A DNA stretch of 64,000 nucleotides from the NCBI RefSeq assembly GCF_000739085.1, contig NZ_CP009110.1:5456001-5520000 (forward strand), in the 5' to 3' direction. Shown one piece after another: positions 15,472 through 42,423 of the stretch. The notes beneath the pieces were generated by a model. It saw only the letters and a program-made list of their open reading frames with translations. It did no database searches and was not told where the DNA came from. Source of the stretch: Amycolatopsis methanolica 239. Lineage in GTDB: Bacteria > Actinomycetota > Actinomycetes > Mycobacteriales > Pseudonocardiaceae. Every line of letters starts with the position of its first letter. Position 1 is the stretch's first letter. Both the position numbers and the translations under genes were made by a program.

Positions 15472-15807
15472 GTGGCGGCCACCGAGCACGATCTCGGCCA
15501 CGAGGAGTGGACGCGGGTCCACTCCAGCCCCGAATTCGCGCAGCTGCGCCGAAGGCTGCGGGGCTTCGTCTTCCCGATGACCGCGTTGTTCCTGGGCTGG
15601 TACCTGCTGTACGTCCTGCTCGCCGACTACGCGCACGGGTTCATGTCGACCAAGCTGGTCGGCAACTTCAACGTCGGACTGCTGCTGGGACTGCTGCAGT
15701 TCGTGTCCACGTTCCTGATCACCGGCCTGTACGTCCGCTTCGCCAACCGGAAGCTGGACCCGATCGCCGACCGCATCCGTGAGGACGTCGAGGGAGGCGC
15801 GCGATGA
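15472..15807 (+). CDS. DUF485 membrane protein
   Basis: A 111-aa protein with two transmembrane helices (about residues 36-56 and 68-92) and the DUF485 blocks EFAQLRRRLRGFVFPMTALFLGWYLLYVLLADYAHGFM and FVSTFLITGLYVRFANRKLDPIAD. It corresponds to YjcH, encoded with ActP in enterics. The GTG start at 15472 has a perfect AAGGAGG site 7 bases upstream. It overlaps actP by 4 bases. It probably supports the symporter; its exact role is not known. Confidence 0.92.
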   Translation: MAATEHDLGHEEWTRVHSSPEFAQLRRRLRGFVFPMTALFLGWYLLYVLLADYAHGFMSTKLVGNFNVGLLLGLLQFVSTFLITGLYVRFANRKLDPIADRIREDVEGGAR

Positions 15808-17402
15808 ACCTCGCCGCGGGAGTCGCGGGCAGCAGCCCCGCGCTCAACATCAGCATCTTCGGCCTGTTCGTGGCCGTCACACTGGTGATCGTGCTGCGCG
15901 CCAGCCGGAACACCAAGACCGCGTCGGACTACTACGCGGCCGGGCGCGCGTTCACCGGACCGCAGAACGGCATCGCGATCGCCGGTGACTACCTGTCGGC
16001 CGCATCGTTCCTCGGCATCGCCGGCGCCATCGCGGTGTACGGCTACGACGGGTTCCTGTACTCGATCGGCTTCCTGGTGGCGTGGCTGGTCGCGCTGCTG
16101 CTGGTCGCGGAGCTGCTGCGCAACACCGGCAAGTTCACGATGGGCGACGTGCTGGCGTTCCGGATGCGGCAGCGGCCGGTGCGCGCGGCGGCGGCGACGT
16201 CCACGCTCGCGGTGAGCTTCTTCTACCTGCTGGCGCAGATGGCCGGCGCCGGTGTGCTGGTTTCGTTGCTGCTGGGAGTGTCCAGCGGGATCGGGCAGTC
16301 GGTGGTCATCGCCGTAGTGGGTGTCGTGATGATCATCTACGTGCTCGTCGGCGGCATGAAGGGCACCACCTGGGTGCAGATCATCAAGGCGGTGCTGCTG
16401 ATCGCGGGCGCCGCGCTGATGACCGTGTGGGTGCTGGGCAAGTACGGGCTCAACCTGTCCGCGCTGCTGCAGGGCGCGGTGGACCGCTCCAGCGAGGCGG
16501 TGCTGAACCCGGGCGCCCGCTACGGCGCGACCGGCACGTCGAAGATCGACTTCCTGTCGCTGGGCCTGGCCCTCGTGCTGGGCACCGCGGGCCTGCCGCA
16601 CGTGCTGATGCGGTTCTACACCGTGCCGACCGCGAAGGAAGCCCGTCGTTCGGTCGTGTGGGCCATCGCGCTGATCGGCCTGTTCTACCTGTTCACGCTG
16701 GTGCTCGGCTACGGGGCGAACGCGCTCGTCGGCGCGGACGTGATCCGGAAGGCGCCGGGTTCGGAGAACGCGGCGGCGCCGCTGCTGGCGCTGGAACTCG
16801 GCGGGCCGGTGCTGCTCGGGTTCATCGCCGCGGTCGCCTTCGCGACGATCCTCGCCGTGGTCGCCGGACTGACGATCACCGCCTCGGCGTCGTTCGCGCA
16901 CGACATCTACGCGAACGTGATCAAGAAGGGCAAGGTGGACGACCCCAACGGCGAGGTGCGGGTCGCCCGGATCACCGCCGTGGTGATCGGCGCGGTCGCG
17001 ATCGTCGGCGGCATCCTGGCGAAGAACCAGAACGTCGCGTTCCTGGTGGCGCTGGCGTTCGCGGTGGCGGCGTCGGCGAACCTCCCGACGATCCTGTACT
17101 CGCTGTTCTGGAAGCGGTTCAACACCTCGGGTGCGCTGTGGAGCATCTACGGCGGCCTGGCGATCACGATCACGCTGATCGTGTTCTCGCCCGCCGTGTC
17201 CGGGACGCCGAAGTCGATGCTGCCGAACGCGGACTTCGACTGGTTCCCCCTGCAGAACCCGGGCCTGGTGTCCATCCCGGCGTCGTTCCTGCTCGGCATC
17301 GTCGGCACGTTGCTGTCGAAGGAGCACGACGAGCGCAAGCACGCGGAGATGGAGGTCCGCTCGCTGACCGGCGCCGGCGCCGAAAAGGCGACGGCGCACT
17401 AG
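15804..17402 (+). CDS. actP: cation/acetate symporter
   Basis: A 532-aa SSS-family transporter with strong ActP/MctC resemblance: AGDYLSAASFLGIAGAIAVYGYDGFLYSIGFL near the N-terminus, LGTAGLPHVLMRFYTVPTAKEARRS in the middle, and LAFAVAASANLPTILYSLFWKRFNTSGALWSIYGG near the end. It imports acetate and related short monocarboxylates. It is second in the operon with the DUF485 gene and is followed after 20 bases by a strong hairpin. The LytS/LytTR pair upstream probably controls it. Confidence 0.9.
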   Translation: MNLAAGVAGSSPALNISIFGLFVAVTLVIVLRASRNTKTASDYYAAGRAFTGPQNGIAIAGDYLSAASFLGIAGAIAVYGYDGFLYSIGFLVAWLVALLLVAELLRNTGKFTMGDVLAFRMRQRPVRAAAATSTLAVSFFYLLAQMAGAGVLVSLLLGVSSGIGQSVVIAVVGVVMIIYVLVGGMKGTTWVQIIKAVLLIAGAALMTVWVLGKYGLNLSALLQGAVDRSSEAVLNPGARYGATGTSKIDFLSLGLALVLGTAGLPHVLMRFYTVPTAKEARRSVVWAIALIGLFYLFTLVLGYGANALVGADVIRKAPGSENAAAPLLALELGGPVLLGFIAAVAFATILAVVAGLTITASASFAHDIYANVIKKGKVDDPNGEVRVARITAVVIGAVAIVGGILAKNQNVAFLVALAFAVAASANLPTILYSLFWKRFNTSGALWSIYGGLAITITLIVFSPAVSGTPKSMLPNADFDWFPLQNPGLVSIPASFLLGIVGTLLSKEHDERKHAEMEVRSLTGAGAEKATAH

Positions 17403-18881: not shown

Positions 18882-19496
18882 ATGAGAAGACTGAAGCGGC
18901 CGTTCGCGGCCGCGGCACTGCTGGCCGGCCTGCTGTCGCTGTTCGTGGCGCCGAACGCGGGCGCGGCCCAGCAGGCAGGCGAGCCGGTCACGTCGCTGGA
19001 CGGGCTGGTGCTGCGCCCGGCGCACCCGAACCAGGTCAAGGGCGGCGTCAACACGATGGCCGAGGAGCAGGCCTACCTGCTCGGCCCGGCCTCGGACCCG
19101 GCTCGCTGCCTGGACGCCGACCTCAACACCATCAACCGCAACGGCACCAAGGTGCAGCTGTGGGCGTGTGACCAGTACGCGGCTCAGCAGGCCTGGTACA
19201 TCCGGCTGATCCCGGAGGGCTACTACCGGTTCCAGAACGCGTACAGCGGCCGCTACCTCGACGCCGACCTGAACACGATCAACCGCAACGGCACCGTCGT
19301 GCAGCTGTGGGACTACGTGGCAGGCGCGAAGAACCAGTGGTTCGCCGCCAGCGAGATCCCCGAGGGCTACCTGCGGCTGCAGAACGTGCAGAGCGGCCGG
19401 TACCTCGACGCGGACCTGAACACCAGCTACCGCAACGGCACCGTCGTGCAGCTGTGGCAGTACGTGGCGGGTGCGCAGAACCAGTGGTGGTACTGA
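18882..19496 (+). CDS. secreted ricin-type beta-trefoil lectin
   Basis: 204 aa. The Sec signal peptide (MRRLKRPFAAAALLAGLLSLFVAPNAGA) spans residues 1-28. The mature part carries three tandem ricin-B repeats, each with a LDADLNT(I/S)xRNGTxVQLW core and a final QW-type motif (NQWF, NQWW). No catalytic domain is attached, so it is a free extracellular carbohydrate-binding protein. GGGGAA precedes the ATG. It ends at a strong terminator. The sugar specificity is unknown, though galactose binding is common in this fold. Confidence 0.88.
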   Translation: MRRLKRPFAAAALLAGLLSLFVAPNAGAAQQAGEPVTSLDGLVLRPAHPNQVKGGVNTMAEEQAYLLGPASDPARCLDADLNTINRNGTKVQLWACDQYAAQQAWYIRLIPEGYYRFQNAYSGRYLDADLNTINRNGTVVQLWDYVAGAKNQWFAASEIPEGYLRLQNVQSGRYLDADLNTSYRNGTVVQLWQYVAGAQNQWWY

Positions 19497-21291: not shown

Positions 21292-22257
21292 GTGACGACG
21301 CTGTACGACTTGCCGCTGTCCGAGCTGGCCGAGTACCGGCCGCCACTGGACGAACCCGCCGACCTGGACGCCTTCTGGGCCACCGCGCTGGCCGAAGCGG
21401 ACCGGTCACCGCTGGACCCGGTTTTTCGTCCACAGAAGACGTTGCTGCGGACGGTGGACGTGTTCGACGCGTCGTTCACCGGCGCGGCCGGGCAGCGGAT
21501 CTCCGCGTGGCTGCTGCTGCCGCGCGACCGGCCGGCCAAGCTGCCGTGCGTCGTGCAGTACCTGGGGTACAACCTGGGGCGCGGCCTGCCGCACGATTAC
21601 CTGACCTGGTCGGCGTTCGGGTACGCCCACCTGGTGGTGGACACGCGCGGCCAGGGCGGGAAGTCGGTGCCCGGCGCGACGGGAGATTCGTGGTCGGCGG
21701 GGCCGCACGTGCCGGGGTTCATGACGCTGGGAATCCGGGACCCGGCGCAATACTTCTACCGGCGGGTGTACGTCGACGCGGTGCGCGCGGTGGCTGCGGC
21801 GCGGGCGCACCCGTCGGTGGACGCGGACCGGATCGTGGTGGCGGGCGGCAGCCAGGGCGGTGGGATCACGATCGCCGCTGCGGCACTGGCGCCCGGGGTC
21901 GCGGCCGCGATGCCGGATGTGCCGTTCCTGTGCCATTTCCGCCGTGGGGCGGAGATCGCTTCCGAGGGGCCGTACCTGGAGCTGGTGACGTGGCTGGCCG
22001 CGCACCGGCACCGGGCCGGAGAGGCGTTTGCCACGCTGCGGTATTTCGACGGGGCTGTGTTGGCTTCGCGGGCTTCGGCGCCTGCTTTGTTCAGCGTGGC
22101 GTTGCGGGATCCGGTTTGTCCTCCGTCGACGGTTTTCGCGGCGTTCAACCGGTGGGGTGGGGATTCGGAGATCCGGGTGTGGGAGTGGAATGAACATGAA
22201 GGGGGGCAGGGGGCTCAGGTCGCTGAACAGGCCTCTTGGCTTTCTGGGGTTTTATAG
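21292..22257 (+). CDS. acetylxylan esterase / cephalosporin-C deacetylase family (CE7) esterase
   Basis: A 321-aa alpha/beta hydrolase of carbohydrate esterase family 7. Family marks are YLGYNLGRGLPHDYLTWSAFGYAHLVVDTRGQGG, the nucleophile elbow GGSQGG (serine near residue 182), an acid Asp in ALRDPVCPP and the catalytic His in WNEHEGG. No signal peptide, so it deacetylates small acetylated sugars in the cytoplasm. GTG start at 21292. It converges on the NanR-like gene with 78 bases between, so it may act on O-acetylated sugars imported by the neighbouring locus; that is inference. Confidence 0.85.
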   Translation: MTTLYDLPLSELAEYRPPLDEPADLDAFWATALAEADRSPLDPVFRPQKTLLRTVDVFDASFTGAAGQRISAWLLLPRDRPAKLPCVVQYLGYNLGRGLPHDYLTWSAFGYAHLVVDTRGQGGKSVPGATGDSWSAGPHVPGFMTLGIRDPAQYFYRRVYVDAVRAVAAARAHPSVDADRIVVAGGSQGGGITIAAAALAPGVAAAMPDVPFLCHFRRGAEIASEGPYLELVTWLAAHRHRAGEAFATLRYFDGAVLASRASAPALFSVALRDPVCPPSTVFAAFNRWGGDSEIRVWEWNEHEGGQGAQVAEQASWLSGVL

Positions 22258-22335: not shown

Positions 22336-23046
22336 CTAGTCAACCGGCGCCGCGGCCCCGAAACCCCCGTACTTGCCGGCCTTCGCGCGCTTCCGCACCT
22401 CGTCGAAGTGCCGGTGCACGGCCTCCTCAGCGGCATCGGCGTCCCCGGCCGCCAGCGCATCGACGATCGCCTGGTGACGCTTCGCCGTGGAGCTCGCCGA
22501 GCCGGCTGGGCCGCCCAGCTCGGCCTCCGCCGCCCGGTACACGTCCCAGAACAGGCGCGTCAGCTCGCGGGCCAGGTCGAAACCGGCCTCGGCGCAGATC
22601 AGGTCGTGGAATTCACGATCGGCGGCCGCGCTGTCCGGGCCCTTGCGCATCCGCGCCACGCACGACTCCAGCGCCGCGATCAGCTCCGGCCGGTGCCGCC
22701 GCGCCACCCGGCGCGTCAGCTCGGTCTCCAGCATCTCCCGTACCTCGAGCAGGTCCCGCAACCGGCCCGTCGTCCCGGCCCCGGGCGTCCGCGTGCGGAA
22801 CAGCAGCCACGTCCGCAACGCCTCCGAACCGGCCGAGCCGACGAACGTGCCGTAACCGTGCCGCACCTCGACGATCCCCAGTGCCCGCAGCGCCCGGATC
22901 GCCTCGCGGATCGAATTGCGGCTCACCCCGATGTCGGCCATCAGGTCGAGCTCCGTCGGCATCGGCGAGCCGGGCGGGAGGTCCCGCTCGATGATCAGGT
23001 CGATGATCCGTTTGCTGATCTCGTCGCCGAGCTGAGGGCGTGCCAC
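22336..23046 (-). CDS. nanR: FadR-type GntR regulator, NanR-like
   Basis: 236 aa. The winged HTH (PTELDLMADIGVSRNSIREAIRALRALGIVEVRHGYGTFVG) is at residues about 30-75, then an FCD ligand domain (LLEVREMLETELTRRVARRH, DREFHDLICAEAG, KRHQAIVDALAAGDADAAEEAVHRHF) with the metal-ligand pattern. The GTG at 23046 has GGGGAG 8 bases upstream; a longer open frame exists but begins in the promoter. It is divergent from the transporter-lyase-sialidase operon. Corynebacterium glutamicum NanR is a FadR-type GntR protein at an equivalent locus. The symbol is assigned by context. Confidence 0.75.
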   Translation of the reverse strand: MARPQLGDEISKRIIDLIIERDLPPGSPMPTELDLMADIGVSRNSIREAIRALRALGIVEVRHGYGTFVGSAGSEALRTWLLFRTRTPGAGTTGRLRDLLEVREMLETELTRRVARRHRPELIAALESCVARMRKGPDSAAADREFHDLICAEAGFDLARELTRLFWDVYRAAEAELGGPAGSASSTAKRHQAIVDALAAGDADAAEEAVHRHFDEVRKRAKAGKYGGFGAAAPVD

Positions 23047-23080
23047 ATCCAACTCCCCGCCTGCTGACCGCCGGATTTCC

Positions 23081-23094
23081 GGACATCCTACGTC
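23081..23094. promoter_or_regulatory. candidate NanR operator 1
   Basis: GGACATCCTACGTC, repeated with one change at 23144-23157. It lies immediately upstream of the -35 hexamer of the operon promoter and 35 bases upstream of the regulator's own start, so it could serve both directions. Confidence 0.5.
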
Positions 23095-23101
23095 AGACCC
23101 C

Positions 23102-23131
23102 TTGACCACGGGACGCGCCACTGTTTACAGT
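23102..23131 (+). promoter_or_regulatory. sigma-70-like promoter of the sialic acid operon
   Basis: TTGACC (23102-23107) and TACAGT (23126-23131) are separated by 18 bases, fitting -35 and -10 elements. Transcription would start near 23138, about 70 bases before the binding-protein ATG. It is framed by the two copies of the GGACnTCCTACGTC repeat. Confidence 0.5.
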
Positions 23132-23143
23132 CACCCGATCGCA

Positions 23144-23157
23144 GGACGTCCTACGTC
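23144..23157. promoter_or_regulatory. candidate NanR operator 2
   Basis: GGACGTCCTACGTC, followed by CTA, so the minus strand reads two TAGGACG units in tandem. It sits just downstream of the predicted transcription start, where a bound repressor would block elongation or promoter clearance. Confidence 0.5.
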
Positions 23158-23206
23158 CTACTTCTCTGCTCCGGCCTGATCAACGACGCACAAGTCAGGA
23201 GACGTC

Positions 23207-24808
23207 ATGTCGCACAGCCTGTCCGGCCTCAGCCGCCGCGATTTCCTGCGGTACACCGGACTCGCCGGCACGGCCGCGGCCTTCTCGGTCACCTTGGGGG
23301 CCTGTGGCGGACCGGCGTCCACCAACACCACGGGCAGCTCCACCGGCACGCTCACCGCGGTCATCGGCTACGGCAACAACCAGACCTGGGACCCGCTGCA
23401 GACCGCGTCGGCCTTCTCGATGGCCGCCAACCTGCACTGCTACGAATCGCTGGTCGAGGGCGACCCAATCACCCGCGACCCGTTCCCCGGCCTGGCCAAG
23501 GCGCTCCCGGCCGACCTCACCGGCACCAGCCTGAAGTTCGAGCTGCGCGACGGCGCCAAGTGGCACGACGGCACCCCGGTGACCGCCGACGACGTCGTCT
23601 TCACCTACGCCCGCGTGCTCGACCCCAACGAAAAGGTGCTGGTTCACAGCTTCTTCGCGGACTGGCTCGCCGAAGTCCGCAAGACCGGCGAGAACTCCGT
23701 CGAGTTCGTGCTCAAGCACCCCTTCCCGTACGCGCTCAAGCGCATCCAGACCGCCAAGATCTGCCCCAAGCACGTCTTCGAGGGCAAGTGGAAGGACGCC
23801 GCGGGTGGCAAGGTCGTCGGCTCCGGCCCGTACAAGGTCGTCGAGCAGGCCCCGCTGTCCTACACCCGGTTCGAGAAGTTCGCCGAGTACAACGGCCCGC
23901 GCCCGGCGGCCTACCAGTCCATGCTGTGGAAGTCGATCGTGGACGCCGCGCCGCGCGTCGCGGCCATCTCCGGGGCCAACCCGGAGGCGCAGATCGTGGA
24001 GAACATCCCGGCGGCCAACGCCGAGCAGCTGCGCAAGTCCGGCCGCAGCGTCGAGTTCGCCGACGGCGGTAACAACCTGTTCCTGATGTTCAACACCGCG
24101 CACGCGCCGTTCGACAACAAGCTCGTGCGGCAGGCCCTGCACTACGCCATCGACAAGCAGAAGATGATCCAGATCGGCCTGCAGGGCGCGGGCACGGCGG
24201 CGACCTCGTTCATCAACCCGAAGCTGCCCGCGTCCCAGCCCGCCGCCAACGACTTCGCCTACAACCCGGACAAGGCGAGGCAACTGCTCCAGCAGGCCGG
24301 CGTCACCAACCTGACGATCACCCTGTCCACCACCAACACCTCGCTCGTCTCGGACTGCGTGAAGGTCATCAAGGAGGGCTGGGACGCGATCGGCGTGACC
24401 ACCACGCTGGACTCGCAGGACACCAAGGCGCTGTTCTCGAAACTGGACAGCGGCAAGGACTTCGAGGTCGTCGCCACCACCAACAACCCGCTGCAGTTCG
24501 GCAACGACCCGGACCTGCTGACCCGCTACTACTACGACAAGACGTCGGTGCTGATGACCACCTACGCCCGGTGGACCGGCCCGGAGTCGCAGGCCCTGCT
24601 GGACCTGCAGAACCAGGCCGCCGCGGAGACCGACGAGGCGCGCCGCGCGCAGCTCACCAAGCAGCTGCTGGACCTGATCTCCGAGCACGCCGTCATCTAC
24701 CCCGTGGTGTTCACCCAGCTCGGCACGGCGTGGAACGCGCAGAAGATCACCGGCGTGCGGGCACAGGGCTACCCGGGCATCTACCTCAACCAGGCCAAGC
24801 CGGTCTGA
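23207..24808 (+). CDS. siaE: ABC transporter substrate-binding lipoprotein (family 5), probable sialic acid binder
   Basis: A 533-aa SBP_bac_5 protein. The N-terminus has a twin-arginine motif (SRRDFL, residues 9-14) and a lipobox ending LGAC (Cys near 33), so it is a Tat-exported lipoprotein. Family blocks are LKFELRDGAKWHDGTPVTADDVVFTYARV and VRQALHYAIDKQKMIQIG. An AGGAG site precedes the ATG. Family 5 mostly binds peptides, but C. glutamicum SiaE and Haemophilus ducreyi SatA of this class bind sialic acid. The downstream lyase and sialidase favour that substrate here. Confidence 0.75.
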   Translation: MSHSLSGLSRRDFLRYTGLAGTAAAFSVTLGACGGPASTNTTGSSTGTLTAVIGYGNNQTWDPLQTASAFSMAANLHCYESLVEGDPITRDPFPGLAKALPADLTGTSLKFELRDGAKWHDGTPVTADDVVFTYARVLDPNEKVLVHSFFADWLAEVRKTGENSVEFVLKHPFPYALKRIQTAKICPKHVFEGKWKDAAGGKVVGSGPYKVVEQAPLSYTRFEKFAEYNGPRPAAYQSMLWKSIVDAAPRVAAISGANPEAQIVENIPAANAEQLRKSGRSVEFADGGNNLFLMFNTAHAPFDNKLVRQALHYAIDKQKMIQIGLQGAGTAATSFINPKLPASQPAANDFAYNPDKARQLLQQAGVTNLTITLSTTNTSLVSDCVKVIKEGWDAIGVTTTLDSQDTKALFSKLDSGKDFEVVATTNNPLQFGNDPDLLTRYYYDKTSVLMTTYARWTGPESQALLDLQNQAAAETDEARRAQLTKQLLDLISEHAVIYPVVFTQLGTAWNAQKITGVRAQGYPGIYLNQAKPV

Positions 24809-24819
24809 GGAGCGCTGCC

Positions 24820-25779
24820 GTGGCCGTCGTCGTGCGGATGCTGCTCGCCCGCATCCTCGCCCTGATCCCGCTGGTGCTCGGGGTGGTCCTGTTCGTCTTC
24901 ATCGTCATGCAGTTCTCCCCTGTGGACACGGCCGTGGCCGCGCTCGGCGACGCCAACCCCACACCGGAACAGCTCCGGCAGTTCCGCCAGGAGAACGGCC
25001 TGCTCGACCCGCTCCCGCTGCAGTACGTGCACTTCGTGTGGCACCTGCTGCAGGGCGACTTCGGCACCAGCGTGATCACGAGGGAGCCGGTCGGGCAGGT
25101 CATCGCCACCGCACTGCCGTTGACCGTGCAGCTCACGCTGCTGGGTCTGCTGATCGCGATCGTCGCCGGGCTCGTGCTCGGCGTGACGTCGGCGCTGTTC
25201 CGCGACCGCTGGCCGGACCAGCTGATCCGGATCGTCACGCTGGCCGGTGTCGCCGCGCCCGCGTTCTGGATCGCGGTGCTGCTCGTCCAGTGGCTCGCGG
25301 TGGGCGAAGGGCTCTTCCCCACCAGCGGCTACGTCAGCCCGGCCGACTCGTTCGGCGGCTGGCTCAACTCGCTGGCGCTGCCCGCGATCTCGCTCGCGCT
25401 GCCGGTCGCCGCGCAGCTGACGCGCATCATCCGCACCTCGATGGTCGAGGAGCTGGACAAGGACTACGTCCGCACCGCGCGCGGCGGCGGGCTGCCGCCG
25501 GTGGTGGTCGTCGGCCGCAACGTGCTGCGCAACGCGCTGATCAACCCCCTCACCGTGCTCGGCCTGCGGGTCGGCTACCTGCTGGGCGGCGCCGTCGTGA
25601 TCGAGACGATGTTCGCGCTGCCCGGGATGGGACAGAACATGATCCAGGCCGTCAAGGACGGCGACACCGCGAAGGTCCAGGGCTTCGTGATCACCATCGC
25701 GGTCGGGTTCGTCCTGGTCAACCTGATCGTCGACGTGCTGTACCTGATCGTGAACCCGCGCCTGCGGAGCCGGTCGTGA
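24820..25779 (+). CDS. siaF: ABC transporter permease (DppB type)
   Basis: A 319-aa permease with six helices, the family N-terminus (LLARILALIPLVLGVVLFVFIVMQFSP) and the EAA loop near AARGGGLPPVVVVGRNVLRNALINPLTVLGLRVG. The GTG at 24820 follows GAGGAG, giving the best ribosome spacing; GTG 24832 and ATG 24838 are also in frame. The stop overlaps the next ATG as TGATG. It would form the channel with the permease half of the next protein. Confidence 0.82.
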   Translation: MAVVVRMLLARILALIPLVLGVVLFVFIVMQFSPVDTAVAALGDANPTPEQLRQFRQENGLLDPLPLQYVHFVWHLLQGDFGTSVITREPVGQVIATALPLTVQLTLLGLLIAIVAGLVLGVTSALFRDRWPDQLIRIVTLAGVAAPAFWIAVLLVQWLAVGEGLFPTSGYVSPADSFGGWLNSLALPAISLALPVAAQLTRIIRTSMVEELDKDYVRTARGGGLPPVVVVGRNVLRNALINPLTVLGLRVGYLLGGAVVIETMFALPGMGQNMIQAVKDGDTAKVQGFVITIAVGFVLVNLIVDVLYLIVNPRLRSRS

Positions 25780-27755
25780 TGCGGCAGCTGTACCGGCCCG
25801 GGCTCACCAAGCGCCTGTCCCGGCCCGGCATCCGGTTCCGCCGGTTCAACACGGCGTCGTGGATCGCGATCGGGGTGCTGGCCGTGCTCGCGCTGGTGGC
25901 GCTGATCGGCCCGCTGCTGGTCAAGGCCCCCTACGCGCTGGGCACCGAGGTCACCGGGCCGAACGCCGCGCACTGGTTCGGCACCGACCAGTCCGGCCGC
26001 GACATCCTCTCCCGCGTGGTGCACGGCGCCCGCTGGTCGCTCGCGATCGGGCTCGGCGCCGCCGCGCTGGCGCTGGTCTGCGGCGCGCTGATCGGGGCGC
26101 TCGCCGCGACCTCCCGGCGCGGGGTGGACTCGGTGGTCATGCGCGTGCTCGACGTGCTGATGGCCTTCCCCGGCATCGCGCTCGCGGCCGTGCTCGTCGC
26201 GGTGTTCGGCCGCGGCATCGGGGTGCTGATCCTGGCGATCGCGTTCGTCAACGTGCCGCCGGTCGCGCGCGTGGTGCGGGCGAACGTGCTGGCGCAGTAC
26301 AGCGAGGACTACGTCGCGGCCGAGCACATCATCGGCGCGCGCCGGTTCTTCATCCTGGTCAAGCACGTGGCGGTGAACTGCGCCGCGCCGATCCTGGTGT
26401 TCTGCACGGTGATGGTGGCCGACGCGATCGTGTTCGAGGCGTCGCTGTCGTTCATCGGCGCCGGCATCCAGCCGCCCGACCCGTCGTGGGGCTCGGTGCT
26501 CGCCGACGGCAAGGACATGGTGCTCAACGGCGGCTGGTGGGCCACGTTGTTCCCGGGTCTGATGATCCTGTTCACGGTGCTGGCGCTGAACGTGCTGTCC
26601 GAAGGGATTTCCGACGCGTGGGCGGCGCCGTCGTCCCGCACGGCGAAGGCGGCGGAGGTCGCCAAGGCGGTCGTCGCCAAGGAGGCGGCCGAGAACGTCG
26701 CGCCGGTGCTGCCGATCCGCGGTCTGCGCGAGGTGGGCGAACGGCTGTCCCGCCGCGCCCGTGCGCTGACCGGGCGGGACACCCTGCTCTCCGTCGAGGG
26801 GCTGACGATCGCGTTCCCGGAGCGGCACAACGGGGTCAACGTCGTCGACGACGTCTCGTTCACCGTGCGCTCGGGCGAGGTACTCGGCCTGATCGGCGAA
26901 TCGGGCTGCGGCAAGTCGCTGACCGCGCTGTCGATCGTCGGGCTGCAGCCGCGGACCGCGCGGCTGTCCGGCCGGATCCGGTTCGCGGGCGAGGACCTGC
27001 TCACGATGAAACCGTCCGCGCGGCGGCGGCACCTCGGCCACGACATCGCGATGATCTACCAGGACGCGCTCAGCTCGCTGAACCCGGCGATGACGATCCA
27101 GGCGCAGCTCAAGCAGTTCACCCGCCGCGGCGGCACCCGCACCCCGCGCGAGCTGGTGGAGCTGGTCAACCTCGACCCGGACCGCACGCTGCGGGCCTAC
27201 CCGCACGAGCTGTCCGGCGGGCAGCGGCAGCGGGTGCTGATCGCGATGGCGTTGTCCCGCAGCCCCAGGCTGATCGTGGCCGACGAGCCGACCACCGCGC
27301 TGGACGTGACCGTTCAGGCACAGGTGATCTCGCTGCTGCTGCGCCTGCAGGAGGAACTGGGCTTCGCGCTGGTGCTGGTGTCGCACGACCTGGCGCTGGT
27401 GTCCGATGTGGCCGATCGCGTGGTCGTGATGTACGGCGGGCAGGTCGCCGAGGCCGGCACCACCGCGCAAGTCGTCGGCGCACCGCGGCACCACTACACG
27501 CGCGGCCTGCTCAGCGCGGTGCTGTCGCTGGAGGAGAACGACGCCCGGCTCACCCAGATCACGGGCGTCGTCCCGGCCCCGGCGGACTTCGCGCCCGGCT
27601 GCCGGTTCGCCGACCGCTGCCCGGCGGCGCGGGCGCACTGCCGCACCGACCTGCCGGTGGTGGCGGGATCCGGGATGGACCACCTCGTCGCGTGCCACCA
27701 CCCCGCCGAACCGATGGCGGAACCGGAGGTCCTGGTGAAGGGAGCGCCGGCATGA
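25779..27755 (+). CDS. siaG: fused ABC permease and ATPase (DppC-DppD fusion)
   Basis: A 658-aa fusion. Residues 1-285 are a DppC-type permease (FGTDQSGRDILSRVVHGARWSLAIG, EAA loop EHIIGARRFFILVKHVAVN). A linker of about 40 residues, rich in Ala/Lys/Glu, leads to an ABC ATPase with Walker A GESGCGKS, signature LSGGQRQR, Walker B LIVADEP and the H-loop VSHD. It ends with the oligopeptide-type cysteine domain (GCRFADRCPAARAHC). Corynebacterial sialic acid transporters have the same permease-ATPase fusion. Overlaps siaI by 4 bases. Confidence 0.85.
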   Translation: MRQLYRPGLTKRLSRPGIRFRRFNTASWIAIGVLAVLALVALIGPLLVKAPYALGTEVTGPNAAHWFGTDQSGRDILSRVVHGARWSLAIGLGAAALALVCGALIGALAATSRRGVDSVVMRVLDVLMAFPGIALAAVLVAVFGRGIGVLILAIAFVNVPPVARVVRANVLAQYSEDYVAAEHIIGARRFFILVKHVAVNCAAPILVFCTVMVADAIVFEASLSFIGAGIQPPDPSWGSVLADGKDMVLNGGWWATLFPGLMILFTVLALNVLSEGISDAWAAPSSRTAKAAEVAKAVVAKEAAENVAPVLPIRGLREVGERLSRRARALTGRDTLLSVEGLTIAFPERHNGVNVVDDVSFTVRSGEVLGLIGESGCGKSLTALSIVGLQPRTARLSGRIRFAGEDLLTMKPSARRRHLGHDIAMIYQDALSSLNPAMTIQAQLKQFTRRGGTRTPRELVELVNLDPDRTLRAYPHELSGGQRQRVLIAMALSRSPRLIVADEPTTALDVTVQAQVISLLLRLQEELGFALVLVSHDLALVSDVADRVVVMYGGQVAEAGTTAQVVGAPRHHYTRGLLSAVLSLEENDARLTQITGVVPAPADFAPGCRFADRCPAARAHCRTDLPVVAGSGMDHLVACHHPAEPMAEPEVLVKGAPA

Positions 27756-28708
27756 CCCTGCTGGAACTGGACCGGGTGCACGTGGTGCACAAGATCCGCT
27801 CGTCCGGCCTGTTCGGGCACGACTCCGTGCACGCGCTGACAGACGCGACGCTGACCGTGCGGCCCGGCGAAACGATCGGCGTGGTCGGCGAGTCCGGGTG
27901 CGGCAAGACGACGCTGGCGAAGGTGGTCGTCGGGCTGCAGAAGCCGACCAGGGGCGTCGTGCGCTACCGCGGCGAACCGGTGTCGGACCAGCGTGGGTTC
28001 GGCCGCGACATCGGCATGATCTTCCAGGACCCGTCGACCGCGCTGAACCGGCGGATGTCGATCGCCCGCATCGTGCGGGACCCGCTCGACGTGCACCGCG
28101 TCGGCACCCCGGCGCAGCGGGCCGAGCGGGTGCGCGAGCTGATGGAGCTGGTCGGCCTGCCGCCCAGCGTCGCGGACGCGGTGCCCGGCCAGCTGTCCGG
28201 CGGCCAGCGGCAACGCGTGGCGATCGCGCGTGCGCTGGCGCTGGAGCCGTCGCTGCTGGTCGCCGACGAGCCGACCTCGGCGCTGGACGTGTCGGTGCGC
28301 GCGCAGATCCTCAACCTGCTGCTCGACCTGCGGGACCGGCTGGGGCTGGCGATGATCTTCGTGTCGCACGACATCCAGACCGTGCGCAAGATGAGCGACC
28401 GCATCGTCACGATGTACCTGGGCCGCATCGTCGAAGACGCCCCGGCCGCCGCGATTCCCGGCGCCGCGCGGCACCCGTACACGCGGGCGTTGTTCTCCGC
28501 CACGCCGAGCCTGCTGAACCCGATCGAACCCATTGTCCTGACCGGGCCGGTGCCGTCCGCGGTCAGCCCGCCGAGCGGGTGCGCCTTCCGCACCCGCTGT
28601 CCGAAAGCGACGGACGAGTGCGCGGGCGCGGTGCCCCCGTCCGCCGACGCCGGCGACGGGCACACCTACCACTGCATCCACCCCGAACTCGAAGTGAGCG
28701 TGCGATGA
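27752..28708 (+). CDS. siaI: ABC transporter ATPase (DppF type)
   Basis: 318 aa with Walker A GESGCGKT, Q-loop MIFQDPSTALNRR, signature LSGGQRQR, Walker B LLVADEP, H-loop VSHD and the C-terminal cysteine-rich domain (GCAFRTRCPKATDEC). It pairs with the ATPase half of the fused protein. ATGA overlaps couple it to both neighbours, placing the transporter and lyase on one transcript. Confidence 0.85.
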   Translation: MTLLELDRVHVVHKIRSSGLFGHDSVHALTDATLTVRPGETIGVVGESGCGKTTLAKVVVGLQKPTRGVVRYRGEPVSDQRGFGRDIGMIFQDPSTALNRRMSIARIVRDPLDVHRVGTPAQRAERVRELMELVGLPPSVADAVPGQLSGGQRQRVAIARALALEPSLLVADEPTSALDVSVRAQILNLLLDLRDRLGLAMIFVSHDIQTVRKMSDRIVTMYLGRIVEDAPAAAIPGAARHPYTRALFSATPSLLNPIEPIVLTGPVPSAVSPPSGCAFRTRCPKATDECAGAVPPSADAGDGHTYHCIHPELEVSVR

Positions 28709-29628
28709 CTCGATTCACCGGCATCATCCCCCCGCTGTGCACCCCGTTCCGCGACGACTTCACCATCGACGTGGACTCGCTGCGCCGGCACCTGGACGTC
28801 CAGCTGGACGCCGGGGTGCACGGGGTGTTCGTGCTGGGCTCGTCCAGCGAGGTGGCGTTCCTGCCGGACCGGCAGCGCCGGGTGGTGATCGAGACGGCGG
28901 TGGCGCACGTCGGCGGCCGGATCCCGGTGCTCGCCGGGTGTATCGACATGACGACGCTGCGGGTCGCCGAGCACATCCGGGTCGCCGAGGAGGCCGGCGC
29001 GGACGCGCTGGTCATCACCGCGCCCTACTACACCCGCACGCATTCCGCGGAGATCGAGCAGCACTTCCGCCTGCTGCACGCGCAGGCCTCGCTGCCGATC
29101 TTCGCCTACGACATCCCGGTCGCGGTGCACTCGAAGCTGGACCGGGAGATGGTCCTGCGGCTGGCCGAGGACGGTGTGCTGGCCGGGCTGAAGGACTCCA
29201 GCGGCGACGAGGCCGGGTTCGGCGCGCTGCTGCTGGGCCGACGGGAGCGCGGGCTGTCGGAGTTCGCCGTGTTCACCGGTTCCGAACTGGTGGTGGACCT
29301 CGCGCTGCAGATGGGCGCGGACGGCGCGGTGCCCGGACTGGCCAATGTGGACCCCGCCGGGTACGTGACGATCTGGGACCGGGTGCGGGCGGGCGACCTC
29401 GCCACGGCACGGCGGGAACAGGACCGGCTCATGCGGCTGTACGACATCACGCACGCCGCCCCGCCGGAGCGGATGGGCCGCGGCTCGGCCGGGCTGGGCG
29501 CGTTCAAGGCGGCGATGAAGATGCGCGGGTTCATCGACAACTCGGTGATGGCGCCGCCGCAACTGCCGCTCAACGACGAGGAACTGTTGCGCATCAAGGG
29601 TGCGCTCACGGAGGCGGGCCTGCTGTGA
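28705..29628 (+). CDS. nanA: DapA-family aldolase, probable N-acetylneuraminate lyase
   Basis: A 307-aa class I aldolase of the DHDPS/NAL family. The Schiff-base lysine is K163 in LAGLKDSSGD, the catalytic tyrosine Y135 in FAYDIP, and the carboxylate loop is GSSSE at 45-49. The PYYTRTHSAEIEQHFR stretch recalls corynebacterial NanA. Context (sialidase, GntR, family 5 transporter) argues for cleavage of N-acetylneuraminate to ManNAc and pyruvate. Another 2-keto-3-deoxy sugar acid aldolase remains possible. GTG/ATG overlaps on both sides. Genes nanK, nanE, nagA and nagB are not in the window. Confidence 0.75.
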   Translation: MTRFTGIIPPLCTPFRDDFTIDVDSLRRHLDVQLDAGVHGVFVLGSSSEVAFLPDRQRRVVIETAVAHVGGRIPVLAGCIDMTTLRVAEHIRVAEEAGADALVITAPYYTRTHSAEIEQHFRLLHAQASLPIFAYDIPVAVHSKLDREMVLRLAEDGVLAGLKDSSGDEAGFGALLLGRRERGLSEFAVFTGSELVVDLALQMGADGAVPGLANVDPAGYVTIWDRVRAGDLATARREQDRLMRLYDITHAAPPERMGRGSAGLGAFKAAMKMRGFIDNSVMAPPQLPLNDEELLRIKGALTEAGLL

Positions 29629-31598
29629 TCCACTACGGCGCGGACTACAACCCGGAACACTGGGCCGAGGACGTCTGGGACGAGGACGTCAAGCTGATGA
29701 CCGAGGCCGGGGTCACGCTGGTGACGCTCGGTGTCTTCTCCTGGGCGAAGGTCGAGCCGCGGCCGGGCGAGTACGACTTCGGCTGGGTCGACACCGTGAT
29801 GGACAAGCTCGCGGCGGCCGGTATCCAGGTGGCGCTGGCGACGATGACCGCCTCACCGCCGCCGTGGCTGCCCCACCGCCACCCCGAGGTGCTGCCCGTG
29901 CGCGAGGACGGGACGCGGCTCTCGCCGGGTTCGCGGCAGCAGTTCTGCCCGTCCAGCCCGGTGTTCCGCGAGCACGCGGCGCGGCTGGTGGAGCAGCTCG
30001 CGAACCGGTACGGCGACCACCCGGCGCTGAAGATCTGGCACGTCGGCAACGAGTACGGCTGCCACATCCGGGCGTGCTACTGCGACACCTCTGCCGAGGA
30101 CTTCCGGTCCTGGCTGCGCGAGCGGTACGGCACGCTGGACGCGCTGAACGCGTCGTGGTCGACGACGTTCTGGTCGCAGGGCTACTCGGACTGGGCCGAG
30201 ATCCAGCCGCCGCGGGTGGCGCCGTCCTTCCGCAACCCCGCCCAGCAGCTGGACTACCAGCGGTTCTCCTCCGACGCGTCGCTGGCCTGCTACCGGGTGG
30301 AGGCGGAGGTGCTGCGCCGGGTCACGCCGGACGTCCCGCTCACCACCAACTTCGTCGGGCTGGTGCAGAAGGCGCTGGACTGGCACGTGTGGGAGCCGCA
30401 CGAGGACGTGGTGTCGCTGGACTCCTACCCCGAGCCCTACGACCCGCGCGGGCACGTCGAGGCGGCGTTCGGGTACGACGTGGTGCGGTCGCTGAAGAAC
30501 GGGCAGCCGTGGATGCTGCTGGAGCACGCGCCGAGCGCGGTGAACTGGCGCAAGCACAACGGCGCCAAGGCCCCCGGCGTGATGCGGCAGGGTGTGCTGC
30601 AGGCGGTGGCGCGGGGCGCGGACGCCGCGATGTTCTTCCAGTGGCGGCAGAGCCGCGGTGGCGCGGAGAAGTTCCACTCGGCGATGGTGCCGCACGCCGG
30701 CGCGGACACCCGGGTGTTCGCCGAGGCGCGGGCGCTCGGGCAGGACCTCGCGGCGCTGGCCGACGTGGCGGGCACGCGGGTGCGGTCGGACGTGGCGTTC
30801 CTGCACGACTGGAACAGCTGGTGGGCGCTGGAGCTGGACGCGCACCCGTCGGCCGACGTCACGCAGCTCGACGCGCACCTGGCGCACTACGCGCCCTTCT
30901 TCGACGCCGGCATCTCCTGCGACGTGGTGCGCCCCGACCGGCCGGCGGGGTACCGGCTCGTCGTGGTGCCGAACCTGTACCTCCTCGATCCGGACACCGC
31001 CGAGGGGCTGCGGCGGTACGTCGAGGGCGGCGGGCACCTGGTGGTGTCGTTCTTCTCCGGCATCGTCGACTCGTGCGACCGGGCCCACCTCGGTGGCTAC
31101 CCGGTGGCCCCGCTGCGGGAAGCGCTCGGGGTGTCGGTGGAGGAGTTCTGGCCGCTGGCGCCGGGCACGTCGGTGCCGTTGAGTCCGGAGTGGACCGGCA
31201 CTCTGTGGTCGGAAGCCGTGGAGCTGCGGGGCGCGGAGGCTGTCGCGTCATTCGACGGCGGCGACCTGGCCGGCTCTCCCGCCGTGACCCGACACGCCTA
31301 CGGCGCGGGTGTCGCCTGGTACCTCGGCACGCGGCTCGACCCGGCCGGGATGCGCGAGCTGGTCGACCGGGTGGCCGCGGAAGCGGGTGTGCGGCCGGTC
31401 CTGCCCGGCCTGCCCGCCGGTGTCCAGGCGGTGCGCCGGGAAGCCGCGGACCGGCAGTTCCTGTTCCTGCTCAACCACAACACGGATGCGGTCGCGGTGG
31501 ACCTGGGAGAACCGGCCCCCGACCTGCTCACCGGTTCCGCGCCGTCGGCCCGGCACACGTTGCCACCGCGCGGCGTCGCAGTCCTCCGGCTCCACTAA
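29625..31598 (+). CDS. GH42 beta-galactosidase
   Basis: A 657-aa glycoside hydrolase family 42 enzyme. The acid/base E143 lies in HVGNEYGC, the nucleophile E300 in WMLLEHAPSAVNW, and Cys108, 146, 151 and 153 match the GH42 zinc site. A Rossmann-like trimerisation domain (about 390-600) and a short beta C-domain follow. No signal peptide: it acts in the cytoplasm on imported galactosides. The GTG start overlaps the lyase stop (GTGA). Between lyase and sialidase, it suggests that galactose left after desialylation is also harvested. Confidence 0.9.
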   Translation: MIHYGADYNPEHWAEDVWDEDVKLMTEAGVTLVTLGVFSWAKVEPRPGEYDFGWVDTVMDKLAAAGIQVALATMTASPPPWLPHRHPEVLPVREDGTRLSPGSRQQFCPSSPVFREHAARLVEQLANRYGDHPALKIWHVGNEYGCHIRACYCDTSAEDFRSWLRERYGTLDALNASWSTTFWSQGYSDWAEIQPPRVAPSFRNPAQQLDYQRFSSDASLACYRVEAEVLRRVTPDVPLTTNFVGLVQKALDWHVWEPHEDVVSLDSYPEPYDPRGHVEAAFGYDVVRSLKNGQPWMLLEHAPSAVNWRKHNGAKAPGVMRQGVLQAVARGADAAMFFQWRQSRGGAEKFHSAMVPHAGADTRVFAEARALGQDLAALADVAGTRVRSDVAFLHDWNSWWALELDAHPSADVTQLDAHLAHYAPFFDAGISCDVVRPDRPAGYRLVVVPNLYLLDPDTAEGLRRYVEGGGHLVVSFFSGIVDSCDRAHLGGYPVAPLREALGVSVEEFWPLAPGTSVPLSPEWTGTLWSEAVELRGAEAVASFDGGDLAGSPAVTRHAYGAGVAWYLGTRLDPAGMRELVDRVAAEAGVRPVLPGLPAGVQAVRREAADRQFLFLLNHNTDAVAVDLGEPAPDLLTGSAPSARHTLPPRGVAVLRLH

Positions 31599-31614
31599 AC
31601 CGAAGGGAAGGCAC

Positions 31615-33471
31615 ATGAGATCGTTCGCAGCGTGGCGCGCGGTCCCGCTCGTGGCGGTGCTGTTCGCCAGTCTGCTCGGCGGCGGGGTCACCGCCTCCGC
31701 CGACACCGCCAGACCGGGCTTCGACCAGCAGTCGCTGTTCAACCCCAAGCAGGAGCAGGGTTACTTCTGCTTCCGCATCCCGGCGATCGTCAAGAGCACC
31801 GCGGGCACCCTGCTCGCGTTCGCCGAGGGCCGGGTCAACGACTGCGGCGACGCCGGTGACATCGACCTCGTCCTCAAGCGCTCCACCGACGGCGGCCGGA
31901 CCTGGTCACCGCTGGAGGTCATCAACTCCGGAGACGGCGACACGCACGGCAACCCGGTCCCGATCGTGGACCGGACGACCGGCCGGATCGTCCTGATCAC
32001 CACCTACAACGCCGGCCGCACCGACGGCAAGGGCTGCGACGTGCCGTGCGCCCGCCCGCCGCACGTGCAGTACAGCGACGACGACGGGCTCACGTGGTCC
32101 GCGCCGGTCGACATCAGCGCGCAGGCCAGCAGGCCCGAGTGGGACGCCTGGTACGCCTCCGGTCCGGTGCACGGGATCCAGCTCACCCAGGGCGAGCACC
32201 GCGGCCGCCTGGTGTTCGGGGTGAACGCGGAGACCGCGCAGGGCACCGACCCGGTGGCCAACCACGCCGCGCTCGTCTACAGCGACGACCACGGCGCGAC
32301 CTGGCACATCGGCGCGGTGGACAGCTACCCGTTCCAGGCGAAGGGCCCGTTCACGCAGAAGCCGCAGGAGATCACCGTCGTGGAGCTCGCCGACGGGTCG
32401 ATCTACGCCGGCGGCCGAGAGCAGGGTGGCACCGACATCGGCAACCGCGACTACGCGATCAGCCGCGACGGCGGCGAGACCTTCAGCCAGCCGTTCCGGA
32501 CGATCCCCGACCTGGTCACGCCGATGGTGCAGGGCTCGCTGCTGCGCTTGGACCGGCCGGGGCCGGACCGGATCCTGTTCGCGTCGCCGTCGGACACCGA
32601 CCGGCGCCGGTGGATGATGATCCGCTCGTCCTACGACGGCGGGCGCAGCTGGGAGAACGCCGAGCAGGGCACACGGGTGACCGACGAGTGGTCCGGCTAC
32701 TCGGACATGGTGCAGATCAGCGACCGGTCCGCCCGCACGACCGAGATCGGCCTGATGTACGAGGGCGGCCCGGTCGACGCGCGCGACGAGATCCGGTTCG
32801 CCCGCTTCACCGAGGACGTGCTGGGCTGGCACAATTCGGCCGGCCCGACGACGCGGGACGTGTCCGGTGAACGGTCGGACGCCTACCTGGTCGGCGGCCC
32901 GGTTCCGGTGCCCGGCCGCTACGGTGACGCGCTGGAACTGGACGGCGTGGACGATTTCGTGCGCGTGCCCTACGACAGCGCGCAGGTGGTCGGCGACGGC
33001 GACTTCACGTGGACCGGCTGGATCCGGTACGGCGCGTCGACGGGCAACCAGGTGTTCTTCTGGATGGGCGGCATGGGCTCGACCGCGCCGCAGATCTGGC
33101 TGCGCGGTGAACCGGCGGCGAACCGCCTGATCGCGTCGATGACCACCACGGCGGGCACGAAGCAGGTCACGTCGGCGGGCGCGTTCAACGACCAGCAGTG
33201 GCATCACGTGGCGCTGCAGCGCACCGGCGGCCAGTTGCTGCTGTTCGTCGACGGCGTGCAGGTGGCGGCCGGCCCGGCAGCGGCCGGTTCGGTGACGGAG
33301 CGGGTGTCGTTCCAGTTCTGGCTGGGCCGCCGCCTCGATGGAGGCATGGGACTGGACGGCGCGCTGGACGACGTCCGGCTCTACCGCAAGGCGCTGTCAC
33401 CGTCCGAACTGGACGCTGTGCGGGCGAACGCCCCCGTGCGGGACGCCCTCGCGCTGCGGCTGCCGTTCTGA
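31615..33471 (+). CDS. nanH: secreted exo-alpha-sialidase (GH33) with LamG domain
   Basis: 618 aa. The signal peptide spans residues 1-30 (cleavage after TASAD-like end). The GH33 propeller has the FRIP motif (residues 53-56, triad Arg54) and five Asp boxes (STDGGRTW, SDDDGLTW, SDDHGATW, SRDGGETF, SYDGGRSW). The nucleophile tyrosine is probably in EWSGYSDM. Residues about 430-600 are a LamG/concanavalin-type module (GDFTWTGWIRYG, WHHVALQRTGGQLLLFVDGVQV). GAAGGGAAGG precedes the ATG. It releases sialic acid outside the cell, feeding the transporter encoded upstream. Confidence 0.9.
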   Translation: MRSFAAWRAVPLVAVLFASLLGGGVTASADTARPGFDQQSLFNPKQEQGYFCFRIPAIVKSTAGTLLAFAEGRVNDCGDAGDIDLVLKRSTDGGRTWSPLEVINSGDGDTHGNPVPIVDRTTGRIVLITTYNAGRTDGKGCDVPCARPPHVQYSDDDGLTWSAPVDISAQASRPEWDAWYASGPVHGIQLTQGEHRGRLVFGVNAETAQGTDPVANHAALVYSDDHGATWHIGAVDSYPFQAKGPFTQKPQEITVVELADGSIYAGGREQGGTDIGNRDYAISRDGGETFSQPFRTIPDLVTPMVQGSLLRLDRPGPDRILFASPSDTDRRRWMMIRSSYDGGRSWENAEQGTRVTDEWSGYSDMVQISDRSARTTEIGLMYEGGPVDARDEIRFARFTEDVLGWHNSAGPTTRDVSGERSDAYLVGGPVPVPGRYGDALELDGVDDFVRVPYDSAQVVGDGDFTWTGWIRYGASTGNQVFFWMGGMGSTAPQIWLRGEPAANRLIASMTTTAGTKQVTSAGAFNDQQWHHVALQRTGGQLLLFVDGVQVAAGPAAAGSVTERVSFQFWLGRRLDGGMGLDGALDDVRLYRKALSPSELDAVRANAPVRDALALRLPF

Positions 33472-41484: not shown

Positions 41485-42423
41485 TCAATAGCAGCCCGAC
41501 ACCACGGGCAGGCACACGTACGTGTCGCCCCAGTGCCCCTGTCCCGTGATGTTCGTCGCGTAGCGGACCAGCGGCGCGAGCCGGGCGAGGCCCGCTGCCA
41601 GTGCCTCTTGGTTCCGCTGCAGCATCCCGGTCAGCTGGTCGAGCGACGCCAGCACCGGGCGCAGCGCGGCATCGTTGTCCGCCACCAGTCCCTGCACCTG
41701 CCGGGACAGCGACTGCGCCCCCGTCAGCAGCGCCGAGATCGTCGACGCCCTGGCCGCCACTTCGGCCAGCACCAGGTTCCCGTCCGCCATCAACCGCACC
41801 ACCTGGGCATCTCGATCTGCCAAGGTTCGTGACAACGCCGCCGTGTTCCCCAGCAGCCGCGACAACTCCGCATCCCGCGAAGCGATCGTCGTCGACAGCT
41901 GGGACAGGCCGTCCAGTGCGCCGCGCACCGAGGAGCCGCCTGGCAGCGCCGCCGACAGCGCGTCGAATGACCGGGCGAGCCGGTCTGTGTCCAGCCCGCC
42001 GACGGTCTTCGACAGGTCCCGGAACGCGTCCAGCACGTCGTACGGCGCGATCGTCCGCGAGCGCGGGATCACCTCGTCGAGTGGCCGCGAACCCAGCGGA
42101 TCCAGCGCCAGGTACTTCTGCCCCAGCAAGGTCTTGATCTTGATCGCCGCCGTCGTGCGGTCGCCCAGCCAGGTGTCCGACACCTTGAACCGGACCCGCA
42201 CCGACGCCCCGTCCAGGCCGACGTCCACCACCTCGCCGACCTTCACGCCGGCCACCCGCACCTCGTCGTCCACGGCGAGGCCGCCCGCCTCGCTGAACTC
42301 CGCCTCGTACGACACCCCCGCGCCGATCAACGGCAGCGAATCCGCGTGCACCGCCGCGACGAACCCCAGCACCAGCACCACGAGACCGGCAATTCCGATA
42401 CCGGCAGGATCCCGATCACGCAT
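41485..42423 (-). CDS. orphan MlaD/MCE family protein
   Basis: 312 aa. One N-terminal transmembrane helix (residues 8-26), an MlaD domain (YEAEFSEAGGLAVDDEVRVAGVKVGEVVDV, residues 38-115), then a long helical region of MCE type (residues 130-290) ending in a small Cys-containing tail (YVCLPVVSGCY). MCE proteins normally sit in operons of six with two YrbE permeases for lipid or sterol import; none of those are here. A single copy facing a TetR regulator suggests a specialised or relic role. Confidence 0.85.
   Translation of the reverse strand: MRDRDPAGIGIAGLVVLVLGFVAAVHADSLPLIGAGVSYEAEFSEAGGLAVDDEVRVAGVKVGEVVDVGLDGASVRVRFKVSDTWLGDRTTAAIKIKTLLGQKYLALDPLGSRPLDEVIPRSRTIAPYDVLDAFRDLSKTVGGLDTDRLARSFDALSAALPGGSSVRGALDGLSQLSTTIASRDAELSRLLGNTAALSRTLADRDAQVVRLMADGNLVLAEVAARASTISALLTGAQSLSRQVQGLVADNDAALRPVLASLDQLTGMLQRNQEALAAGLARLAPLVRYATNITGQGHWGDTYVCLPVVSGCY

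Follow-up and report, generated by a model that had tools for sequence, protein, structure and literature searches.

A NanE-less operon of Amycolatopsis that probably harvests Kdn, and its relatives among actinomycetes

The closest described actinobacterial systems to the locus considered here are the sia/nan locus of Corynebacterium glutamicum and the clusters that hold nanA together with nanK and nanE. The locus lies on the chromosome of Amycolatopsis methanolica 239, a single contig of 7,237,391 bases, within a stretch of 64,000 nucleotides (the window; positions 5,456,001 to 5,520,000 of NZ_CP009110.1). It consists of gntR and, divergent from it, a seven-gene run (23207 to 33471 of the window) that leads from the gene of a substrate-binding protein (SBP) to that of a glycoside hydrolase of family 33 (GH33) with a LamG module. 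The use of 2-keto-3-deoxynononic acid (Kdn) is already known from Sphingobacterium, for which passages of PMC10017367 describe a KDNase and a Kdn-specific aldolase, and from Haemophilus influenzae, which takes up Kdn and breaks it down in a NanA-dependent manner (passages of PMC7845648). Catabolism of Kdn by actinomycetes would be the new part; neither an actinomycete Kdn catabolic operon nor a paper on an Amycolatopsis sialidase operon was found in the literature searched, which leaves out most subscription journals. The survey of Li and Huang (2022; PMC8754123) required clustered nanA, nanK and nanE, and 3 of 169 Pseudonocardiales species were positive. Loci of the present type do not hold that cluster and would therefore not be counted; the words Kdn, Amycolatopsis and galactosidase are absent from the main text.

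On sequence grounds, the locus is probably an operon for harvesting Kdn. The predicted secreted GH33 with its C-terminal LamG module, a proposed Kdnase (31615 to 33471; Pfam BNR_2 and Laminin_G_3), would free alpha-linked Kdn, or galactosyl-Kdn, from an extracellular Kdn polymer. Either product would be imported by a SatA-family ATP-binding cassette (ABC) transporter, the genes of which encode a family 5 binding lipoprotein predicted to be exported by the twin-arginine (Tat) route (23207 to 24808; Pfam SBP_bac_5, with a match to PDB 5za4), a permease (24820 to 25779; BPD_transp_1, searched as the longer frame 24571 to 25779), a permease-ATPase fusion (25776 or 25779 to 27755; BPD_transp_1, ABC_tran and oligo_HPY) and an ATPase (27752 to 28708; ABC_tran and oligo_HPY). 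A predicted cytoplasmic GH42 beta-galactosidase (29625 to 31598) would take off beta-galactose, and an aldolase of the N-acetylneuraminate lyase (NAL) family, proposed to act on Kdn (28705 to 29628; Pfam DHDPS), would yield mannose and pyruvate. A sugar kinase of general metabolism, followed by ManA, would then bring mannose into glycolysis. These seven genes lie on the forward strand, and gntR (22336 to 23046; Pfam GntR and FCD), encoding a FadR/FCD-type regulator, on the reverse. Uptake and an aldolase without NanK or NanE make sense if the substrate is Kdn; NanK, NanE, NagA and NagB would not be needed, since the aldolase product from Kdn is mannose. A wider proposal is put forward more tentatively, namely that the NanE-less operon, found in Amycolatopsis, Streptomyces and other actinomycetes, serves specifically to consume the wall teichulosonic acid, made of Kdn and galactose, of actinomycetes that live nearby or have died; GH33 would trim the polymer, galactosyl-Kdn would be imported whole, GH42 would split it inside the cell, and the aldolase would feed mannose and pyruvate into glycolysis.

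All eight genes were found in the order and at the positions given by a first-pass annotation, which had been made from the sequence alone and had called the locus a sialoglycan-harvesting operon. Neighbouring genes overlap by 4 bases at three junctions, and by 1 or 4 bases at a fourth, depending on the start codon; 11 bases separate the SBP and permease genes, and 16 bases the GH42 and GH33 genes. The comparison of gene order across Amycolatopsis that the annotation had recommended revealed 8 further regions (L026-L033) with all eight genes in unchanged order and gntR divergent, at 83-100% protein identity. Because this order is kept, the arrangement is not a chance one. The nearest named relatives are A. 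tucumanensis (aldolase 99% identical), A. deserti and A. thermalba. An aldolase of at least 75% identity is present in 12 of the 19 Amycolatopsis genomes examined, its own genome counted. In 8 of the 11 other genomes, the region keeps the full sequence of genes from gntR through transporter, aldolase and GH42 to GH33; as for the remaining three regions, L035 lacks only a detected adjacent gntR, L036 is a 4.7-kb contig, and L034 has the aldolase alone.

The first-pass annotation had expected nanK, nanE, nagA and nagB elsewhere in the genome, an expectation that failed for the families searched. The complete genome contains no match to NanE (PF04131; control matches in 8 of 14 known genomes) or to N-acetylglucosamine (GlcNAc) 2-epimerase (PF07221; control matches in 2 of 14). 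NagB was not found either, the single PF01182 match being the 6-phosphogluconolactonase gene pgl, which scores over the TIGR01198 cut-off and has frames resembling zwf and opcA (identified by eye) next to it; no search was made for nagA or for a deaminase of the NagB-II type. The genome does have ManA, and 14 ROK-family matches were counted. NanE is missing from all 12 Amycolatopsis genomes that carry the aldolase ortholog. With neither nanK nor nanE in the locus and no NanE in the genome, the system is not of the canonical nanA/K/E kind defined in PMC8754123, and with PF07221 unmatched, it is not of the Bacteroidetes type that pairs nanA with NanE-II. Among 24 NanE-less loci outside Streptomyces, no partner gene recurred in more than 3, and no dedicated mannose kinase was found.

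Across the class, the operon exists in two versions. In a sample of 393 genomes, the aldolase was detected at E <= 1e-60 in 35, of which 17 have a strong NanE match and 18 have none at E <= 0.001. The loci compared were regions no longer than 20 kb, each surrounding an aldolase or NanE gene, together with named loci (the best 80 of 555), and a locus was called NanE-linked when NanE lay within the fetched stretch. By this definition, 10 named loci are NanE-linked, while 70 have no NanE in the fetched stretch, the rest of those 70 genomes not having been searched; some of the 70 contigs end early, and some repeat genomes already sampled. Most NanE-linked loci run gntR, SBP, permease, permease-ATPase, ATPase, aldolase, nanK, nanE; in L180, L181 and L183, the transporter genes form one group and aldolase, nanK and nanE another next to it, and the run of L173 is interrupted by an insert. 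The NanE-less loci share this transporter, regulator and aldolase but contain neither nanK nor nanE. Sialidase type, binding-protein type, operator and NanE co-segregate.

The sialidase type was read from the GH33 proteins. The window GH33 begins with a signal peptide (recognised by eye) and, by motif and alignment, has the complete catalytic set, namely the triad Arg54, Arg268 and Arg337, the acid Asp79 and the nucleophile Tyr362. Its Arg147 aligns, with two aligners in agreement, to R171 of AfKdnase, the Aspergillus fumigatus Kdnase that we take PDB 2xcy to be; AfKdnase numbering is assumed to be chain number plus 20, and 7p1b is taken to be the Trichophyton Kdnase, the PDB file itself calling these chains sialidases. 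Arginine occupies this position in 71 of 71 readable NanE-less GH33 proteins (72 were examined, one an unreadable fragment, and at least 6 of the 71 duplicate sequences already counted) versus 0 of 10 NanE-linked ones, which have Leu, Thr, Gln or Ile; for 21 of the 71, from 19 genomes, the absence of NanE was tested across the whole genome. Elsewhere, the position is Arg in 2xcy and 7p1b, Leu in 1eur, presumably the Neu5Ac (N-acetylneuraminic acid) sialidase of Micromonospora, and Ala in sialidase-1 8du5. It is also Leu in PDB 4m4v as read from the printed chains. Thr121, Asn124 and Trp202 (AfKdnase numbering) divide the two versions likewise (71 of 71 NanE-less versus 0 of 9 or 0 of 10 NanE-linked), and the best PDB matches for the first half of the catalytic domain (residues 41-210) are the fungal chains 7p1b and 2xcy. 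The NanE-linked loci carry a Micromonospora-type GH33, and in a tree of 151 columns, nine of these group with 1eur at 97% support; the remainder, on its own branch at 85%, is formed by NanE-less GH33 proteins and the fungal chains. The first-pass annotation had seen in the locus a hint of animal-derived glycans, which does not fit a sialidase and an SBP that both belong to the NanE-less version, or sialidases that share a fungal-Kdnase residue set. Three Kdnase-type GH33 genes in L239 (Actinoallomurus), and two in L263 (Actinomadura), surround one transporter operon together with GH42, which suggests a richer polymer-degrading set.

The binding protein divides the two versions in the same way. 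The window SBP has the twin-arginine motif SRRDFLR at residue 9 and the lipobox LGAC at residue 30, and its best PDB match is a chain of 5za4/5z99/5yyb (E 2.5e-92, 38.8% identity over 479 aligned positions); 5Z99 is SatA of Haemophilus ducreyi (HdSatA; passages of PMC10017367). This homology, together with the family 5 permease and ATPase domains, places the transporter in the SAT/ST3 (SatABCD) family. Mean SBP identity to the HdSatA chain is 53.9% in 21 NanE-linked loci versus 38.2% in 78 NanE-less ones. Thirteen diagnostic columns are HdSatA-like in 20 of the 21 NanE-linked proteins (L173 is mixed) and of the other type in 78 of 79 NanE-less ones, the window counted, although some rows repeat a genome; the window SBP carries the NanE-less letter at 13 of 13 columns, and HdSatA at none. 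The sole NanE-less exception, L248, sits within a NanE-linked clade, and its contig breaks off directly behind the aldolase gene; it is therefore probably a cut NanE-linked locus.

The GntR protein is proposed to sense the imported nonulosonic acid or a product of it, and, acting at two copies of GGACRTCCTACGTCC, would keep both the operon and its own gene repressed until its ligand appears. Its best NCBIfam model is NanR (E 4.4e-32), yet its 111.6 bits fall below the cut-off of 260. The candidate operator copies, GGACATCCTACGTCA just upstream of the -35 element (23081 to 23095) and the palindrome GGACGT-CCT-ACGTCC (23144 to 23158), are both kept in the intergenic alignment and flank a putative forward-strand promoter, TTGACC-18-TACAGT (23102 to 23131), assigned from conservation and a match to consensus. 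These two copies, at 0 and 1 mismatch, are the only sites in the genome within 1 mismatch. A regulon beyond the locus was considered and rejected, with 28 genome matches within 2 mismatches (26 at exactly 2), where the reversed motif, as a control, gave 30. Within 1 mismatch, GGACRTCCTACGTCC occurs upstream of the SBP gene in 61 of 76 NanE-less versus 3 of 20 NanE-linked regions (reversed motif 0 of 96), and within 2 mismatches in 74 of 76 versus 7 of 20; of the 16 Amycolatopsis regions in these counts, 4 repeat a single record. For Kdnase-type GH33 entries outside the listed Amycolatopsis loci, it lies within 400 bases upstream in 8 of 44 (1 mismatch) or 12 of 44 (2 mismatches; control 0 of 44), versus 0 of 4 for Micromonospora-type GH33. 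The NanE-less version is thus marked, as far as motif matching tells, by a shared operator.

The aldolase is 50% identical to 5c54, which we take to be the NAL of C. glutamicum, and 26% identical to E. coli NanA. It groups with characterised NAL, and its Lys163 and Tyr135 align with the Schiff-base lysine and the tyrosine of E. coli NanA (Lys165 and Tyr137), which places it in the NAL subfamily of the DHDPS family; it scores below the cut-offs of both the nanA and dapA NCBIfam models, the latter scoring higher. Neither a peptide-binding SBP nor an aldolase of the 2-keto-3-deoxygluconate or DapA kind, the outcomes that the first-pass annotation had set against itself, was thus encountered. Its reading of the locus as a nonulosonic acid system stood, with an SBP of the SatA family and an aldolase of the NAL type; its choice of Neu5Ac as the substrate did not, given the missing NanE, epimerase and NagB. 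A system for Neu5Ac (sialoglycans) like that of C. glutamicum, with N-acetylmannosamine (ManNAc) handled by unrecognised or non-homologous enzymes, is accordingly an unlikely explanation. It could draw on the identity of the aldolase to 5c54, the kinship of the SBP to the Neu5Ac-binding HdSatA, the many ROK kinases, and a whole GH33 domain that is as near to Neu5Ac sialidases as to Kdnases, but would have to accommodate both those three absences and the existence, among relatives, of a nanK-nanE version with a different SBP and GH33.

Active-site residues of the aldolase were tried and rejected as a substrate marker, because positions 49 (Ser or Gly) and 192 do not track NanE. Position 192 of E. 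coli NanA (Glu) is a tail-binding position, and the Leu found there in the window aldolase could be read as favouring some other ulosonic acid, whether Kdo (3-deoxy-D-manno-octulosonic acid) or Dha (3-deoxy-D-lyxo-heptulosaric acid) of plant pectin, or pseudaminic or legionaminic acid of bacterial surfaces. GH33 includes a hydrolase acting on the Dha of rhamnogalacturonan II, and NeuB-family matches, many of them weak, occur in 220 of the 393 class genomes at E <= 0.001. However, the position is not diagnostic, since 5c54 also lacks Glu there (Thr), while the SBP stays within the sialic-acid SatA family and the GH33 has specific residues in common with the Kdnase chains; such a substrate is still less likely than Neu5Ac. 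NAL-type aldolases can accept Neu5Ac as well as Kdn. That Neu5Ac or several nonulosonates are taken for their pyruvate half, with ManNAc discarded, is the least probable explanation, being wasteful and leaving the fixed GH33 and SBP differences unexplained, even though NanA of H. influenzae acts on both Neu5Ac and Kdn (passages of PMC7845648).

If Kdn is the substrate, it most likely comes from the teichulosonic acid of galactose and Kdn that actinomycetes have in their walls, a source that would explain GH42. In some wall polymers, a Kdn backbone carries beta-galactose as side chains; with such a polymer as food, galactosyl-Kdn would be the expected import. The GH42 protein has three Pfam domains (Glyco_hydro_42, E 5.5e-152, plus trimerisation and C-terminal domains) and, in the catalytic motifs of the family, Glu143 and Glu300, and so qualifies by sequence as a GH42 beta-galactosidase. 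It begins directly at the catalytic domain, with no signal peptide discernible by eye, and would therefore act in the cytoplasm on an imported galactoside, rather than, as first annotated, on galactose exposed outside once sialic acid is gone. Streptomycetes have a main wall polymer made of Kdn and galactose (passages of PMC11481543 and PMC7831098), and Promicromonospora has an alpha-Kdn polymer with glucose (passages of PMC6801904); we infer that prey or debris with Kdn polymers should be common in soil. NeuB was not found in this genome, so that the polymer would come from neighbours, the cell's own wall being an unlikely source by the known route. Recycling of its own wall was rejected here on this absence, and because NeuB occurs in 4 of 12 ortholog-bearing Amycolatopsis genomes versus 5 of 7 others; scavenging is preferred, since NeuB is no commoner where the operon is present. 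In the group taken for Streptomyces, all 20 aldolase-bearing genomes of the class sample have NeuB, and self-recycling is therefore possible in that group.

Several observations weigh against a Kdn-harvesting role or its proposed polymer. GH42 adjoins only 15 of the 70 NanE-less named loci, in varied positions, and none of the 10 NanE-linked ones; nor did it turn up in the NanE-linked regions L168-L183. In AfKdnase, the R171L substitution reportedly shifted substrate preference only modestly, and the additional GH33 columns were chosen after a scan of all 164. The best single-sequence PDB match of the whole GH33 protein is sialidase-1 8du5, with 7p1b (E 1e-28), 1eur and 2xcy close behind, and a catalytic-domain profile of 17 GH33 rows fits the Kdnases (E 7e-48) less well than the Micromonospora sialidase (E 1e-55). 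The signal for a Kdnase thus comes from particular columns and from the N-terminal half. Long branches drew a program warning in the GH33 tree, and the pocket residues of the aldolase do not cleanly separate the two versions. The aldolase tree of 127 rows requires at least 6 changes of NanE linkage, but only 3 in the subset of 63 rows that have a GH33 gene next to the aldolase. Arg171 likewise changes 3 times, giving 2 independent pairs with NanE on supported branches and 3 on all; both supported pairs go in step, and three matched changes are too few for significance. The passages on the streptomycete polymer give neither linkage nor anomeric form. The case is thus strong in the agreement among its parts, and weak in the number of independent events.

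A third, simpler layout consists of the aldolase and a NanT-like transporter without NanE. Such minimal modules were seen in L038, L039, L040, L041, L043, L044 and L045 (aldolase 44-50% identical, gntR nearby except in L038, no NanE in the genomes), and are possibly a transporter-swapped Kdn system. In the Streptomyces-like L155, L157 and L161, the aldolase gene stands without the operon's transporter, which relatives keep; this looks like decay of the locus. Adjoining gntR in the window is a gene for an AXE1-family acetyl esterase (21292 to 22257, forward strand; E 3.1e-102), which is found at the same place in 6 of the 8 full Amycolatopsis regions and has relatives near the NanE-linked operons L174, L180, L181 and L183. 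Its product may be an accessory sugar O-deacetylase acting on sialate or Kdn, and its membership in the operon is uncertain. Upstream of the locus lie two sodium:solute symporter family genes on one strand (13655 to 15394 and 15804 to 17402), and a gene for a 204-residue protein with ricin-type beta-trefoil lectin repeats (18882 to 19496), some 3.7 kb away from where the first gene of the operon begins. An MlaD/Mce-type protein is encoded at 41485 to 42381.

The nanA and sialidase genes of soil actinomycetes are easily taken for animal sialic acid use. If these loci use Kdn, part of that sialic-acid annotation is wrong, the food being a bacterial wall polymer, and the operon would provide a genetic handle on teichulosonic acid breakdown. 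Compared with known systems, the operon, with its proposed Kdnase and Kdn aldolase, resembles Sphingobacterium, in which both kinds of enzyme are described, but that genus belongs to another phylum, and the passages of PMC10017367 draw no link to teichulosonic acid or GH42. The fungal Kdnases 2xcy and 7p1b have Arg171, Thr121, Asn124 and Trp202 in common with the window GH33, the whole-domain profile of which is, however, nearer to the Micromonospora sialidase. SatABCD of H. ducreyi is related through the SBP at the identity given above, but HdSatA has none of the 13 NanE-less letters, all of which the window protein carries. With the sia/nan locus of C. glutamicum and the actinobacterial nanA/K/E clusters, the operon shares a NAL-family aldolase in one operon with an ABC transporter, and with the actinobacterial nanK-nanE relatives, the same layout of gntR and transporter; it differs from them in having no nanK or nanE in the locus and no NanE in the genome, and in an SBP and a GH33 that belong to other subgroups.

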